NCBI RefSeq assembly: GCF_007874125.1
Contig: NZ_CP040128.1
Span: 1,116,001 to 1,180,000 of the forward strand
Direction: 5' to 3'
DNA from: Noviherbaspirillum sp. UKPF54
Lineage (GTDB): Bacteria > Pseudomonadota > Gammaproteobacteria > Burkholderiales > Burkholderiaceae_D
Length of the DNA stretch: 64,000 nt
Position 1 is the stretch's first letter. Each line of letters starts with the position of its first letter. A program made the position numbers and the translations under genes. Positions 22,458 through 56,650 of the stretch are shown piece by piece. The notes beneath the pieces are model-generated. The model made no database searches. It had not been told where the DNA came from and was given only the letters and a program-made list of their open reading frames with translations.

Positions 22458-23033
22458 CTATCGGTGGATGACGACCAACAAGGCTTTCGCCTCGGTCTTG
22501 CCGACATTGCGGATCGCGTGGCTCTTGTCAGCCAGGTAACGCGCGGTCCCGCCCGCCTTCAGCTTTTTCTTCGTGCCGTCCACTTCGACTTCCAGCGCGC
22601 CGTGCAGCAGCGTCAGGTATTCCGACGTGCCCGGGTCGTGCGGATTGGACACCAGCGCGCCATCCGGCACCAGCGTCAGTTCATACCATTCGTATTTCCC
22701 CGCCAATTCCATCGGCCCCAGGATGCGCAATACATAGCCGGCATGGCTGCCCGGCAGGGTCGGCGTCTCATGCGGCTCCAGGATATGGATCGCTTCGACT
22801 TCCTGCGCTTCGCTCGACAGCAGTTCTTCTATGCCAACTCCCAACGCGTTCGCCAGGCGCCAGGCGACCGCGATGGTCGGATTCGCCTTTTCCCGCTCGA
22901 TCTGCGACAGCATGGATTTCGACACGCCGGCCGCGCGCGACAGGTCGTCCAGCGTGAGGCCGCGCTTGAGGCGCAGCTTCTGGAGCATGACCCCGACTTC
23001 GGGCGGGGAACTTGGCGTGCTGGTTTTTTTCAT
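22458..23033 (-). CDS. XRE-family regulator with C-terminal cupin domain
   Basis: A 191-residue regulator: N-terminal helix-turn-helix (about 15-70; LTLDDLSRAAGVSKSMLSQIEREKANPT) and a C-terminal cupin (about 110-185; LTLVPDGAL, GTSEYLTLLHGALEVEVDG) that likely binds a small ligand. It is of the PuuR/SutR type. The ATG at 23033 is chosen; an in-frame TTG at 23048 is possible and neither has a clear ribosome site. It is divergent from kbl-tdh with shared palindromes between, so control of threonine breakdown is the likely job (inference). Confidence 0.9.
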   Translation of the reverse strand: MKKTSTPSSPPEVGVMLQKLRLKRGLTLDDLSRAAGVSKSMLSQIEREKANPTIAVAWRLANALGVGIEELLSSEAQEVEAIHILEPHETPTLPGSHAGYVLRILGPMELAGKYEWYELTLVPDGALVSNPHDPGTSEYLTLLHGALEVEVDGTKKKLKAGGTARYLADKSHAIRNVGKTEAKALLVVIHR

Positions 23034-51279: not shown

Positions 51280-51328
<49 letters not shown>

Positions 51329-51419
51329 CTCCCCGACCCCTTGATTCCATGCGGGTTCCAAGGGAGAATTCTCCGCAACAGAGGATCATCTCCGCAACGC
51401 AGCATGGAAACAGGTTTAT

Positions 51420-51507
51420 GGAGACTTGGGTGAGTGGTTTAAACCAGCAGTCTTGAAAACTGCCGAAGGGCAACCTTCCGTGAGTTCGAATCTCACAGTC
51501 TCCGCCA
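51420..51507 (+). tRNA. tRNA-Ser (anticodon UGA)
   Basis: An 88-base class II tRNA with CCA encoded. Acceptor GGAGACT/AGTCTCC, D stem GGT/ACC, anticodon stem GCAGT/ACTGC with loop CTTGAAA (anticodon TGA), a long variable arm GAAGGGCAACCTTC, and T arm GTGAG-TTCGAAT-CTCAC. All stems pair. The D stem GGT/ACC replaces the usual GCC/GGC by a compensated change. It reads UCA and other UCN codons. Confidence 0.92.
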
Positions 51508-52485: not shown

Positions 52486-53205
52486 TCAGGCTAATGTTTC
52501 GTAAAAGCTGTCCCACTCGCCTTTCGAGTTGTACTTGCCTAGATTGTGCCGCGAGCTATTCCTGTATCCCTTCAATGCCCAGCAAAGAGCTGCTCCGGCA
52601 AGGAATGCCAGAACTGAAAGTGCGATTATTTCTTGCCGACCGTATGTTTTAGTACGCGCCATTTCCGAGGACTCTTCGTTTACCTGGGTCCTTTGGAGCT
52701 GCAGCAAGTCGGACACGGCCTTTTGGTAATGTTGCGAAAGCGGCAGATATTGCTCATTAAGCAGCTTTACCGCTTCCTGAGCATGCCCCGTGGACTTCAG
52801 TTTGAGCACGGCATCCCTGGCTGCGTGATATGCATTGCGGATTTCAACAATTTTGGCGAACAGGACTCTTTCTTGGTCAGTGTCCAGCCGGTCGCCGACG
52901 CGCCTGATAAGTTCATCATTCTGCCCCGCCGTGACGGTGGCAGGGAAAACGGCCGATAGCCCTGAATCTCTGCTGTGAACCAGGACCGTTGTGCGCATTA
53001 CCGTGCTCGTAATATTGCTGTTCCAATCGCTTACGAGACGCTCGGTACTCAAAGGAATGGCCAAGGCCGTCCCGACGCTTTTGTCATTTTGAATGCCTTT
53101 CCACATCCCGTTGGCTGCGATTAGCATCGCCATGGACAGCGATGCAAACAAAGCCAACGTTAATCGGTTGCCAATTCTTGTTTTGTAACTAACGGTCATG
53201 CTCAA
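52486..53205 (-). CDS. chemoreceptor-like sensor fragment (4HB domain, no signalling domain)
   Basis: A 239-residue protein with a first membrane helix (about 13-33), a periplasmic four-helix-bundle domain (about 35-185; typical 4HB_MCP pattern with ERLVSDWNSNI) and a second helix (about 193-212). It then ends after about 27 residues (KGYRNSSRHN), where a chemoreceptor would continue into HAMP and the methyl-accepting domain. No HAMP-like frame follows. It may be a truncated gene or a stand-alone sensor; truncation is more likely in this decaying neighbourhood. The start could also be two codons in. Confidence 0.7.
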   Translation of the reverse strand: MSMTVSYKTRIGNRLTLALFASLSMAMLIAANGMWKGIQNDKSVGTALAIPLSTERLVSDWNSNITSTVMRTTVLVHSRDSGLSAVFPATVTAGQNDELIRRVGDRLDTDQERVLFAKIVEIRNAYHAARDAVLKLKSTGHAQEAVKLLNEQYLPLSQHYQKAVSDLLQLQRTQVNEESSEMARTKTYGRQEIIALSVLAFLAGAALCWALKGYRNSSRHNLGKYNSKGEWDSFYETLA

Positions 53206-53664
53206 GTCCCCAGCGAGATTGATTTACTAAAGCAGCGTGACGATACCAAATCTGAAAAGCGATTTGGTGTATTTTTCGATGAACTCAGAAGCTGTTCAAG
53301 ACCTTTTACTCGAACGCTGGCAAGACACTGGAAATTGGCGCAGTCACTGGAAGCGGTGTACGGCCCGCTTCACCTTGCTTTTGAGAGCGGGCAAGAATGT
53401 CTGAAAGATCGAGCGTGGAATTTCAAACCGGCATGAACGGCGTAGAGTATAAATAATCGCACATTAAGAATATCATCCCCATGGCTTGGTTAAATTCTTT
53501 CAATGAAGAAAAACACCAATGATGACTTTGCGTTTCTCGTTCACGAAAGCGAAGTCCGTCGCTGATTCGCTCCTTCGTTTGGACTAATTGTCCGCTTGGA
53601 GCTCCACAGCGGTGGTCGCCGACATTGATAGCCCTCGTGAACAGTATCTTGGCATCCAAGATAC
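53206..53664. other. intergenic region without a supportable gene
   Basis: About 460 bp of mixed composition between the sensor fragment and the PAS/EAL pseudogene. Only short, non-family-like frames are present on both strands. Confidence 0.5.
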
Positions 53665-54421
53665 CGATGTTGGTTTTTTGGGGGGGCGCGCCTTATCTCC
53701 ATCTATAACGATGCTTACCATCAGAAATTTCTTGGCAGTAAACACCCCACAGCGTTTTTTCAGTCCTATCGAGATATTTGGTCAGAAATTTCGCCCGAAC
53801 TGAGGACCGTTGTCGAACGGGGATGGGCAGGCCATGCAACATTCCTCAAAAAACGCGCCATTCGCCGTGCAACGGCGAGATTACAAGGAACAGCTCTGGG
53901 CCACGGTTTTCTCATTCACCCATTTTCGATACCGGTAGTATCGCGGGGCGCTGGTGATTGGTATGGATGCGACCGCACAGGTCCGGGCAGAGAGACGGCA
54001 GGGCTTTCAGCTCGCGTTCATCGACGAGTTGCGTGGCGTGACCAACGCTAACGACATTACTGCGCGAGCGACAAAGCAAAATCGCGCTGGATGATTTCGG
54101 CACTGGCTACTCCAGTCTTAGCCACCTCAGTAATCTTCCGATCGACAAGCTGAAGGTCGACCAGTCTTTCATACGCCGTCTGGGACACGACAATTCAAGT
54201 AAGGCCATTACGATAGCTGTCATTGCACTGAGAAGGACGCTGAATCTGGAAATCGAGGGGGAAGGCATTGAGAGGGGGAAGGCATTGAGTCAGAACAAGC
54301 GCTGGCCTATCTGGAAGAGCAGGGGTGCAACCTCGCGCAAGGGTATTTCATCAGCCGGCCGTTGCTGGCGGCAGCCTTTGCCGGCTGGTACCGTGAGAGA
54401 GCAAGGACTATCTGTAGTTGA
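53665..54421 (+). pseudogene. degenerate PAS/EAL signalling protein
   Basis: Remnant of a PAS-containing signalling protein joined to the end of an EAL domain. Bases 53668-53820 encode a PAS-like segment (IYNDAYHQKFLG, HPTAFFQSYRDIW); the frame shifts by one near 53825 (PFAVQRRDYKEQ), then a segment like TAQVRAERRQGFQLAF occurs near 53960, and from 54075 an EAL C-terminal part (KIALDDFGTGYSSLSHL, KLKVDQSFI) follows in another frame. A 17-bp tandem duplication (54255-54288) breaks the last part, which resumes SEQALAYLEEQGC, QGYFISRP. The GGDEF region and EAL motif are absent. Confidence 0.8.
54255..54288 (+). repeat. 17-bp perfect tandem duplication
   Basis: GAGGGGGAAGGCATTGA occurs at 54255-54271 and immediately again at 54272-54288. 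Removing one copy restores the EAL reading frame (IEGEGIESEQAL), so the duplication is a direct cause of frame loss. Confidence 0.92.
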
Positions 54422-54633
54422 ACAGTCGCTTCGAACGGCTGAAAGCGAATTCAGCGTCCATACGGCTAGTGATTAAATAACTTGCCCAATACCTGTTGAG
54501 CCGATTATCGACACGGTATTTTCGCTCGTCGTCTGGATAGCCCGTGAATTCGTGGCCGGTGACAAGCAACCTGACCTTGATGTGCGCCACGCACCCATTT
54601 CGCTTCTTGCCGGCGCATACCTGATAACGATTG

Positions 54634-54696
54634 AAAAAAGCCCACGCAGCGTGCGCTGCGCGGGCAAGGATCCTGGCTGGTCATGACGCCAGGATC
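54634..54696 (-). ncRNA. candidate small RNA unit C (hairpin + oligo-U)
   Basis: On the minus strand: hairpin GATCCTGGC/GCCAGGATC (54669-54696), then an 11-bp stem GCCCGCGCAGC/GCTGCGTGGGC (54640-54665, one G:U) with a GCAC loop, then T6 (54634-54639). It resembles units A and B but no promoter is seen, so it may be a decayed copy or be read from unit B. Confidence 0.5.
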
Positions 54697-54715
54697 AGGG
54701 AAAGCAGGCGAATAC

Positions 54716-54795
54716 AAAAATGCCCACACGGCTTGCGCTGTGCGGGCAAAAATACCTCGACGGATCGGTGGAACCGACGATTGGAGCCTACTTGC
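54716..54795 (-). ncRNA. candidate small RNA unit B (own promoter and terminator)
   Basis: On the minus strand: TAGACT (54823-54828), 16-base spacer, TATGCT (54801-54806), predicted start about 54795. The RNA would carry a small hairpin TCGGT-TCC-ACCGA (54765-54777), then CCGCACAGC-GCAA-GCCGTGTGG (within 54722-54747) ending in T5 plus one interrupted base: about 80 nt in all. The GNRA-type loop and stem are shared with unit A at 20 of 22 positions. Confidence 0.6.
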
Positions 54796-54876
54796 TTTAA
54801 AGCATAATTTATTCAGAGAAACAGTCTAGGGCATTGGCTCACAGGGTCTTGAAGTGGCTTCCGAAGACTAGCGATC

Positions 54877-54947
54877 AAAAAAAAACCGCACGGCTTTCGC
54901 TGTGCGGAGAAGAAACACGCCTTTGCCGGGATTGTTACTACCGGAGA
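54877..54947 (-). ncRNA. candidate small RNA unit A (own promoter and terminator)
   Basis: On the minus strand: TTAACA (54977-54982), 17-base spacer, CTTAAT (54954-54959), predicted start about 54947. A short CCGG..CCGG stem (54926-54944) is followed by CCGCACAGC-GAAA-GCCGTGCGG (54886-54907) and T9 (54877-54885): about 70 nt, ending in a classical terminator. Confidence 0.6.
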
Positions 54948-55281
54948 CCAAAGATTAAGGCTATTGATGACAATTTTGTTAAGACATGGCCTGGAAAGTT
55001 ACGATCTGGCTTGTCACGTCTGGAAAAGACAAACCCTCCGTGAAGCGGAGGGCTGGAAATCTGGTGCTGGAATCTTTGCATACCGCCAGCTCCGGTACAA
55101 ACATACGATTCCTCTGAGTGTGGCTCACTTGGAAAAGTGTGAATGCGGCGATGTTAACGAAGCGGCGTTACAAGGCTATGACAAATCGCAAACTTGATGC
55201 ATAGCAATTAATATTCGTGCGCGATGTCCAGTGTTCCCGGCGGTGAAGGAACACTCCCGGCTGGCGCTGTTCCGAAGAACC

Positions 55282-56442
55282 TTATGCCGCCGCTGCCAGG
55301 GGACTACGTGCCGGACTGCCGGTCTCTTCGAGGCGCGCCCGGTAGAGCGCGGCGACGAGGTCGGATTGCGTGACCATGCCGATGACGCGCCGTTGCGGGT
55401 CGACGACCGGTAAATGGTGATAGCCGGCATCCGAAAACAGCGGCACCAGGTCGGTGAGAAGCTGATCGGGGGTCGCTGTTCGCACTTCGCGGGTCATCAG
55501 GTGTTCTATATGTTCGACGAGTGGCAACTGCGGCGGCCAGAAACCGGTCGGTGCGTCATGTTCGTGGCCGATCATCATATCGTGCAGCGATACGATACCG
55601 ACCAGAACGCCGCTGTCATCGACGACCGGCAGCGTCTTGATCTTGTGCTTCGCCAGCAGACGCCAGGCGGCTTGCGGCGAGGTGGATTGCCGGACCGTGA
55701 CCACATCCTTCGACATCAGGTCGGCGCAATGAATCTGGCCGAAACGGCGGTGGTAGGCTTTCAGTTCGGCATGCCGCAGAATTTCCTCCAGGTCGTCGGG
55801 ATCGACGTCGAGAAATTGTTGGTGCGATTTCAGTACCGCGTCCAGATCCGCGCGCGTGAAGCCGAGGCGCTCGGTCGGCAGCGGGTCAGCTGTATGGTGC
55901 GGATTGGTGTGATGCAGATGGGCATGCGGATAGCGCCGGCGCATCAGGTTATTGAAGACCAGGGCCGCGACCAGCAGGAAAACGGAGTTCAGTCCGACCG
56001 GCCACAAGGCGAAACGGTACCCGCTGGCGAACACGGCGGGTCCGCCCAGGACGGCGGTCAGCGCCACCGCGCCGCTGGGCGGATGCAGGCAGCGCAGCGC
56101 GAACATGGCGGCAATGGCGACGGCGGCGGCGGCGCTTGCGGCAAGCACGGGATCGCCGATGGTATGCGCGCAGGCGACGCCGACCAGGGCCGAAACGATA
56201 TTGCCGCCTACCAGAGACCAGGGTTGCGCCAGCGGGCTGGACGGTACGCCGAACAGCAGCACGGCCGATGCGCCCATCGGGGCAATAAACCAGGGATTGA
56301 GATCGCCCAGCGTGGCCTTGCTGACGAGGCCGGCAAACATCAACCCGATCCACGCGCCCAGGCAGGCACACAGCTTTTCGCGCCGCCCGATATTGATGGA
56401 AACGGGAATGAACCCGTGTAACCACGCCCTTACATCATTCAT
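55282..56442 (-). CDS. HPP-family membrane protein with two CBS domains
   Basis: A 386-residue protein: HPP membrane domain (about 15-185; several hydrophobic helices with the signature FALRCLHPPSGAVALTAVLGG) and two C-terminal CBS domains (about 240-300 and 315-375; LMSKDVVTVRQSTSPQAAWRLL, LMTREVRTATPDQLLTDLVPLF). HPP proteins have been linked to nitrite transport in plants and cyanobacteria; the CBS pair would sense adenine nucleotides. The ATG at 56442 matches homolog starts (MNDVRAWLHGFIP); the frame is open further upstream. Divergent from ClC. Confidence 0.88.
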   Translation of the reverse strand: MNDVRAWLHGFIPVSINIGRREKLCACLGAWIGLMFAGLVSKATLGDLNPWFIAPMGASAVLLFGVPSSPLAQPWSLVGGNIVSALVGVACAHTIGDPVLAASAAAAVAIAAMFALRCLHPPSGAVALTAVLGGPAVFASGYRFALWPVGLNSVFLLVAALVFNNLMRRRYPHAHLHHTNPHHTADPLPTERLGFTRADLDAVLKSHQQFLDVDPDDLEEILRHAELKAYHRRFGQIHCADLMSKDVVTVRQSTSPQAAWRLLAKHKIKTLPVVDDSGVLVGIVSLHDMMIGHEHDAPTGFWPPQLPLVEHIEHLMTREVRTATPDQLLTDLVPLFSDAGYHHLPVVDPQRRVIGMVTQSDLVAALYRARLEETGSPARSPLAAAA

Positions 56443-56650
56443 GTTGGTTTGTTTGGCCAGCCTGGCGGCAAGCACTACTGTTTTTGGGAAAGCCGCGAAA
56501 TATAACACGATGTGATACATTTTGTTGCCACTGTCGCAGCTCATTTTTGCCACAGCCAGAAACGTTGTTGGTGTCTTGCAACGTGCCGGTGCAGGAAGGC
56601 GCCCGGCTTGGGCGACAAGCCCCCAATTTATTCAATTCAGGATTTAAAAG

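Follow-up and report, generated by a model that had tools for sequence, protein, structure and literature searches.

In a 64,000-nt stretch of the Noviherbaspirillum sp. UKPF54 genome (the window), three related stem-loops with T runs lie on the minus strand between a gene for an HPP-CBS protein (55282–56553) and a broken plus-strand gene (~53200–54440). The data support a conserved and apparently noncoding locus whose three hairpins resemble intrinsic terminators. Our leading reading, held tentatively and with a little less than even confidence, is that this array forms the 3' part of a noncoding RNA locus under the control of PhoB. Directly upstream of the array and on the same strand is an element absent from the first-pass annotation, in which a Pho-box promoter precedes an RNA whose covarying H-type pseudoknot is followed by ACCA; this Pho RNA puts the array in a different light. 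We infer the control by PhoB, the ends of the transcripts and any function. With the units lettered from the lowest coordinate (A, then B and C), the features in order of transcription are as follows.

55282–56553, minus strand: gene for an HPP transmembrane protein with two CBS domains (Pfam TM_HPP and CBS), the 5' neighbour, given as context.
55168–55183, minus strand: Pho box TGTCATAGCCTTGTAA, two half-sites 11 nt apart, score 10/10.
55151–55156, minus strand: -10-like hexamer TAACAT, found by eye 27 nt from the box start, with a predicted start near 55144.
55115–55127, minus strand: 5' hairpin of the Pho RNA, TGAG/CTCA, with 88.5% of cells paired and three of four pairs changed on both sides (13 copies).
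55062–55096, minus strand: 35-nt H-type pseudoknot core of the Pho RNA, ACCGGAGCTGGCGGT...CCAGCACCA, supported by covariation in 42 distinct copies.
55032–55054, minus strand: hairpin after the pseudoknot with an interrupted U-tract, TTTGTCTTTT, which passes both terminator scans in the window.
54919–54948, minus strand: 5' hairpin of unit C, GUCU-CCGG/CCGG-AGGC with a 3-nt bulge, a fold predicted for the window.
54877–54907, minus strand: terminator stem and T9 of unit C, the proposed 3' end of the PhoB-driven transcript, 96.7% identical to N. autotrophicum.
54801–54828, minus strand: candidate promoter of unit B, TAGACT-16-TATGCT (8/12 by our own count), with a predicted start near 54794.
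54716–54747, minus strand: terminator stem and T5 of unit B, in a segment 100% identical to N. autotrophicum.
54669–54696, minus strand: 9-bp hairpin of unit A, GATCCTGGC/GCCAGGATC, in a segment 93.2% identical to N. autotrophicum.
54634–54665, minus strand: terminator stem and T6 of unit A, with five substitutions in N. autotrophicum, all of which keep pairing.

The core of the Pho RNA consists of two helices, ACCS/SGGU (P1) and GCYGG/CCRGC (P2), whose interlocking makes an H-type pseudoknot. The first 13 copies form both helices in full, and compensatory changes occur in 2 and 4 of them. We assembled 42 distinct copies, these 13 included, from 49 matches in 47 chosen sources, and aligned them by fitting to a model that holds P1 but not P2. 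Pairing was found in 99.4% of cells for P1, 100% for P2 and 99.7% overall. Compensatory changes occupied 16 cells, compared with 5.0 ± 1.5 in shuffles and none in slid controls, with the double changes confined to two of the nine pairs. P1 and P2 were the only helices of at least 4 bp kept in at least 95% of the 41 ungapped cores. The ACCA after the second helix is invariant (42/42), and the first pair of the acceptor-like stem is G-C in 41 of the 42 copies and G-U in one.

To survey the distribution of the element, we searched 294 sampled genomes of the family, taken to be Oxalobacteraceae. At E ≤ 0.001, a covariance model found the element in 123 of them, representing 27 of 44 genera; within the window's own genus it was present in 11 of 15 genomes, several of which had more than one copy. 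An exact-pattern search over the order recovered the core in 4 of 399 genomes (4/13 from the family, 0/386 others); this pattern is strict and misses copies found by the covariance model, so 0/386 does not settle absence outside the family. By blastn, eight of the nine matching genomes besides the window's own and N. autotrophicum matched 55020–55161, not the array. Rfam 15 gave only sub-threshold, opposite-strand matches in the window's copy (engA, 13.8 bits; c-di-GMP-I-GGC, 13.4 bits) and no match up to E 1 at the element in eight further loci. The open-access literature, outside which most subscription papers lie, yielded no earlier description of a PhoB-controlled pseudoknot RNA of Oxalobacteraceae. 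The Pho RNA thus appears to be an undescribed RNA family.

Small H-type pseudoknot RNAs include the preQ1 and SAM-II riboswitches and the tRNA-like 3' ends of plant viruses. The Pho RNA resembles all of these in its two short interlocking stems and A-rich second loop, and resembles the viral ends further in having a stem followed by ACCA. Unlike the known small pseudoknot RNAs, it has no relevant Rfam match and no common downstream gene in the loci inspected; unlike the viral 3' ends, its ACCA is internal to the predicted transcript. We think it very improbable, if conceivable, that the Pho RNA is an undescribed Oxalobacteraceae class mimicking the acceptor end of tRNA (a G-C-capped stem, ACCA and an A/U-rich trailer), which would undergo trimming as tRNA precursors do and would recruit a tRNA-handling enzyme (RNase P, the CCA-adding enzyme, EF-Tu or a synthetase) in phosphate starvation, with the array terminators setting the length of the 3' trailer. 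The likeliest function would be in the phosphate response, as a stable RNA that acts in trans or binds protein. Among the neighbours recognised by eye were a transketolase-like frame opening 65 and 94 nt downstream of the core at two loci (L217 and L224) and an acid-phosphatase or phospholipase-like gene divergently upstream of it at another (L216).

Boxes upstream of the Pho RNA were scored as the best match to TGTMA-N6-TGTMA in the 41 copies whose upstream sequence was long enough (one was dropped). Scores of at least 9 occurred in 15/41 copies compared with 1.9% of random stretches, and scores of at least 8 in 26/41 compared with 9.7%. Of these 26 boxes, 23 lie 59–95 nt before the core and three are too close to it for promoters. 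The same kind of box, scoring 9–10, stands upstream of pstS in all five genomes checked. In the window genome, pstS also has a -10-like hexamer, TAGAGT, 27 nt from the box start (hexamers by eye). The promoter of the Pho RNA therefore resembles that of the PhoB-regulated pstS in the 11-nt spacing of its half-sites and in its distance to the -10-like hexamer, but stands in front of a noncoding pseudoknot RNA and not of a protein gene. PhoB control of the window's copy, and of many others, is accordingly well supported, as far as sequence can indicate it. A terminator-like hairpin within 95 nt of the core was found in 14 of 42 copies, the window's included, compared with 1.9% of random stretches. 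Because 15 of 41 boxes score below 8 and 28 of 42 copies lack a recognisable terminator within that distance, some copies may lie outside PhoB control or not be discrete RNAs.

As the first-pass annotation had described, the array contains three related stems followed by T runs on the minus strand only, at 54640–54665 (A, T6), 54722–54747 (B, T5) and 54886–54907 (C, T9). The agreement at 20 of 22 positions that it reported was reproduced between units B and C as lettered here; A and B agree at 22/26 positions. A repeat search returned a single 37-nt family of three copies with 78–81% identity to the reference copy. Folding z-scores were -6.5, -3.3 and -1.6 for A, B and C, respectively. A terminator scan of 54400–55400 found four terminator-like sites, two of them at unit A and none at units B and C, compared with 1.2 ± 1.2 in shuffles. 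As a control we compared 114 terminator-like hairpins, drawn from the window and from some of the fetched loci: 15 of their 6,441 pairs scored at least as high as the A–B pair. This control is rough because the sample includes homologues and loci fetched for similarity.

A smaller hairpin had also been proposed before each stem. This held strongly for unit A, whose 9-bp hairpin keeps 8 of 9 pairs in N. autotrophicum. Unit C has an 8-bp hairpin with a bulge; all eight pairs are possible in N. autotrophicum (one C-G becomes U-G), yet the predicted fold differs. For unit B, the folds predicted for its 5' part differ between the window and N. autotrophicum.

The array itself is narrowly distributed. 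Its DNA had matches at E ≤ 0.001 in 11 of the 294 sampled family genomes (own included). Among the 293 others, the full-length array (354 nt) was found only in N. autotrophicum TSA66, placed in Oxalobacteraceae by NCBI, with 86% identity; in the nine other matching genomes, scores did not exceed 49.1 bits and match lengths did not exceed 47 nt. No plasmid matched. The array is therefore no dispersed repeat. With no second copy in its own genome, where the next best match (31 nt, 43.7 bits) fell on a terminator stem, and only one full-length copy among 293 other genomes, the array does not bear out the earlier notion of a selfish RNA. A model, R1, was built from the six units themselves, whose own hits (71.6–86.6 bits) are therefore by construction. 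Elsewhere in 15 genus genomes it scored at most 39.5 bits, and we rejected a broad family of A/B/C-like units. Among the weaker R1 hits, the seven places inspected, in six loci, held RF02278 genes, other small-RNA-like units or plain terminators. A general linkage of the array or the Pho RNA to HPP genes was likewise rejected: among 55 HPP loci (42 of 80 named loci and 13 of 15 further loci), the array occurred only in N. autotrophicum, where two of the three units were listed; the Pho RNA was found there and at one other locus.

We compared the window with N. autotrophicum segment by segment. From the Pho promoter to terminator A, 11 of 12 segments are 75–100% identical and the other is 71.7% identical; the HPP gene is 64.3% identical at 199 four-fold sites. 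Terminators C, B and A reach 96.7%, 100% and 82.4%, the 5' part of A 93.2% and the C–B spacer 80.8%. The 71.7% segment is the 5' part of unit B, which by hand count agrees at 44 of 54 columns when two 1-base gaps are allowed and is therefore not clearly neutral. In terminator A, the five substitutions comprise two compensatory pairs and one G-U to A-U change, with no pair broken. Identity falls to 28.1%, with half of the columns gapped, in the stretch that separates the HPP stop codon from the Pho box. The block conserved in blastn runs from ~55212 to 54632, ending right behind unit A although the query extended past both ends. Because this block is better conserved than the HPP four-fold sites and the unit A stem has compensatory changes, the array looks like a conserved RNA locus and is unlikely to be debris.

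The region had been called decaying. That description suits the left side, where the broken gene carries frameshifts and stops, but not the array itself. The remnant (~53200–54440, plus strand) resembles an EAL-type signalling gene, a domain recognised by eye. Further to the left, a degraded tRNA-Ser-like sequence (51280–51394, plus strand; RF00005, 32.8 bits) adjoins the tRNA-Ser(TGA) at 51420, and only the latter is called by ARAGORN.

We also considered that the array is only a row of intrinsic terminators, lacking any function as RNA and serving the HPP-CBS gene or vanished genes as back-up stops, and that its stems are alike through convergence on a favoured terminator sequence. Similar stems elsewhere in the genus (L018, L035/L086), the broken gene to the left, and the fact that the terminators are the best-kept segments of units C and B are all in keeping with this. 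However, the left-hand gene is on the other strand, so the stems are not its terminators, and four stem-loops in a row with conserved spacers (80.8% for C–B and 93.2% for the A hairpin, compared with 64.3%) exceed what termination needs. Since bare terminators would explain the stems and not the conserved stretches between them, we regard this explanation as unlikely.

A conserved small protein was rejected as well. Some short frames stay open in both species, which makes a tiny peptide conceivable, but by-eye comparison of the window with N. autotrophicum revealed no coding pattern in them. A 22-codon TTG frame is identical in the two species because the DNA there is nearly unchanged, and a 32-codon GTG frame, reaching the end of the stretch, has 5 residue differences.

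Two of the units had been credited with their own promoters. We found no sigma-70-like site scoring at least 9/12 in 54400–55400, where shuffles give 0.6. Unit B has the 8/12 pair TAGACT-16-TATGCT, which the promoter scan did not return; its -10 region, AAATTATGCT, is unchanged in N. autotrophicum, and the stretch as a whole is 75.0% identical. By-eye inspection showed no good -10 for unit C. A box-like sequence scoring 8/10 also lies upstream of C, which could therefore have a promoter of its own.

These observations bear on a rival reading, in which the units are independent tandem trans-acting sRNAs that pair with ribosome-binding sites, like the Burkholderia double-hairpin RNAs or Neisseria NmsR. 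PMC5688073 gives the double-hairpin layout as a C/U-rich unpaired stretch followed by a hairpin and then a terminator. Unit A shows this arrangement, with an unpaired UAUUCGCCUGCUUUCCCU, its 9-bp hairpin and a terminator, and its 5' segment is the one that is 93.2% identical in N. autotrophicum. Unit B keeps GGCUCC and AAATTATGCT there, and its 5' part (71.7% ungapped, 44/54 gapped) is not clearly neutral. Such sRNAs are reported for Neisseria, PMC5688073 describing N. meningitidis NmsR as tandem homologous sRNAs. The array is like NmsR in being a tandem set of small RNAs in a betaproteobacterium; it differs from the homologous NmsR sRNAs, as that text presents them, in that its units are clearly alike in their terminators only and their promoters are weak. 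Against independent sRNAs stand the lack of any promoter of at least 9/12 in the scan, the little room for a unit A promoter behind B's terminator, and the different 5' folds predicted for B and C in the two species. In addition, no CU motif was seen that is common to the three units, and the GUCUCC of unit C is lost in N. autotrophicum. Independent sRNAs, above all unit A, are possible on this analysis, and we give them a minority share of our confidence.

We compared the array with known RNA families, including the betaproteobacterial toxic small RNA (RF02278) to which it had been tentatively linked. At the gathering threshold, Rfam had no match in the array and no RF02278 match anywhere in the window. 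The RF02278 model gave 13.5 bits (E 9.8) at 54714–54789 only, against a cut-off of 50. The genome itself contains 12 RF02278 matches at E ≤ 0.001, of which eight exceed the cut-off (55–64 bits), all of them elsewhere than the array. Of these eight copies, all carry GUCUCCUCC and seven carry UGUCUCCUCC; GUCUCCUCC is absent from 54632–54985, where unit C has only its first six bases. The family comprises double-hairpin RNAs, among them Burkholderia ncS03, ncS05, ncS27 and ncS62, and Herbaspirillum Hsnc059 and others. The units share with it a short, noncoding form, a strong intrinsic terminator and occurrence in Betaproteobacteria, and unit A also shares the order of unpaired C/U-rich 5' end, hairpin and terminator. 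In contrast to RF02278, the array is tandem rather than scattered, is found in two species only, and has neither a family score nor GUCUCCUCC. A short hairpin plus terminator in a betaproteobacterial genome that carries the family would suit membership, but with a best score of 13.5 against a cut-off of 50, eight genuine copies in the same genome at 55–64 bits and no GUCUCCUCC box, we rejected it and consider it to have next to no chance of being correct.

The best Rfam scores of units A and B were to anti-hemB (RF02837, Burkholderia RNA 7), at 19.8 and 18.4 bits. Both units resemble it in having two stems and a terminator. Membership was rejected because these scores are far below the cut-off of 49.5; sub-threshold anti-hemB matches (E ≤ 10) also occurred in 13 of 14 control genomes. 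One genuine anti-hemB copy lies elsewhere in the genome (L009, 60.2 bits). Both families are therefore present in this genome, at places other than the array.

Several units at other loci drew our attention. At two loci, a hairpin-terminator unit lies directly 5' of an RF02278 gene. The small unit at L084 (G006:C1) has AGGAGACA at 4459090 and a terminator at 4459103–4459132, and its AGGAGACA is a perfect complement of the RF02278 UGUCUCCU. In the other (L085; G007:C44, minus strand, ~22868–22960), GGAGGCA pairs with UGUCUCC, with one G-U. The two units could possibly act as a sponge of double-hairpin RNAs. The window genome (L018, G000:C1:3913995) and N. autotrophicum (L038/L088) share a short unit that looks like an RNA, has CCUCC and ends in a strong terminator, its stem sequence being close to that of unit C. 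Two further loci in two species (L089, G000:C1:1277640–1277790; L086, G002:C2:1509560–1509800) have in common GGUCGGUCCCU(A/U)AAGGCCUCCCAGGAAGU followed by a terminator, and form a small RNA candidate.

Returning to the reading we favour, the array as the 3' part of a PhoB-controlled locus, we asked where the transcripts would end. When cells starve for phosphate, PhoB in its phosphorylated form would occupy the box at 55183–55168, and the RNA would start near 55144. It would contain the conserved H-type pseudoknot and then the hairpin with an interrupted U-tract, which would stop the polymerase only in part. Another ~155 bases of transcription would lead to unit C, whose strong terminator would set the RNA length at ~265 nt. 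In N. autotrophicum, the corresponding hairpin has lost its U-tract and fails the terminator scan; between the two species it shows two compensatory pairs, one one-sided change and one broken outer pair. As the U-tract is interrupted in the window and missing in N. autotrophicum, unit C may end the PhoB-driven transcript, and our preferred reading is that at least part of this transcript does so. Conversely, since the window's hairpin passes both terminator scans, the Pho RNA may end there, before C. The Pho RNA is found in many places without C, B and A, so its link to the array rests on two genomes.

Unit B may be transcribed from its own weak promoter as a separate short RNA of ~80 nt. Because unit A follows closely behind B's terminator, it would most likely be read from B, serving as a structured second terminator that ends read-through (~160 nt from the B start). 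Of the original proposal of a candidate small RNA family, what remains is a conserved, apparently noncoding locus in which unit B could be a short RNA of its own; the toxic family, the selfish repeat and two good promoters do not. The array is a small, lineage-specific member of the small-RNA kind.

The lead that the array provides to the Pho RNA outweighs the array itself in importance. The Pho RNA is a compact pseudoknot RNA, often behind Pho boxes, whose helices covary and whose tail is invariant; it occurs in 27 of the 44 genera sampled from the family. The locus may show how a PhoB-driven RNA whose own terminator has been lost comes to rely on terminators downstream. If the Pho RNA is expressed in phosphate starvation, it would be a new family-wide component of the phosphate response, and its fixed pseudoknot geometry would make it a small target for structure and binding studies.
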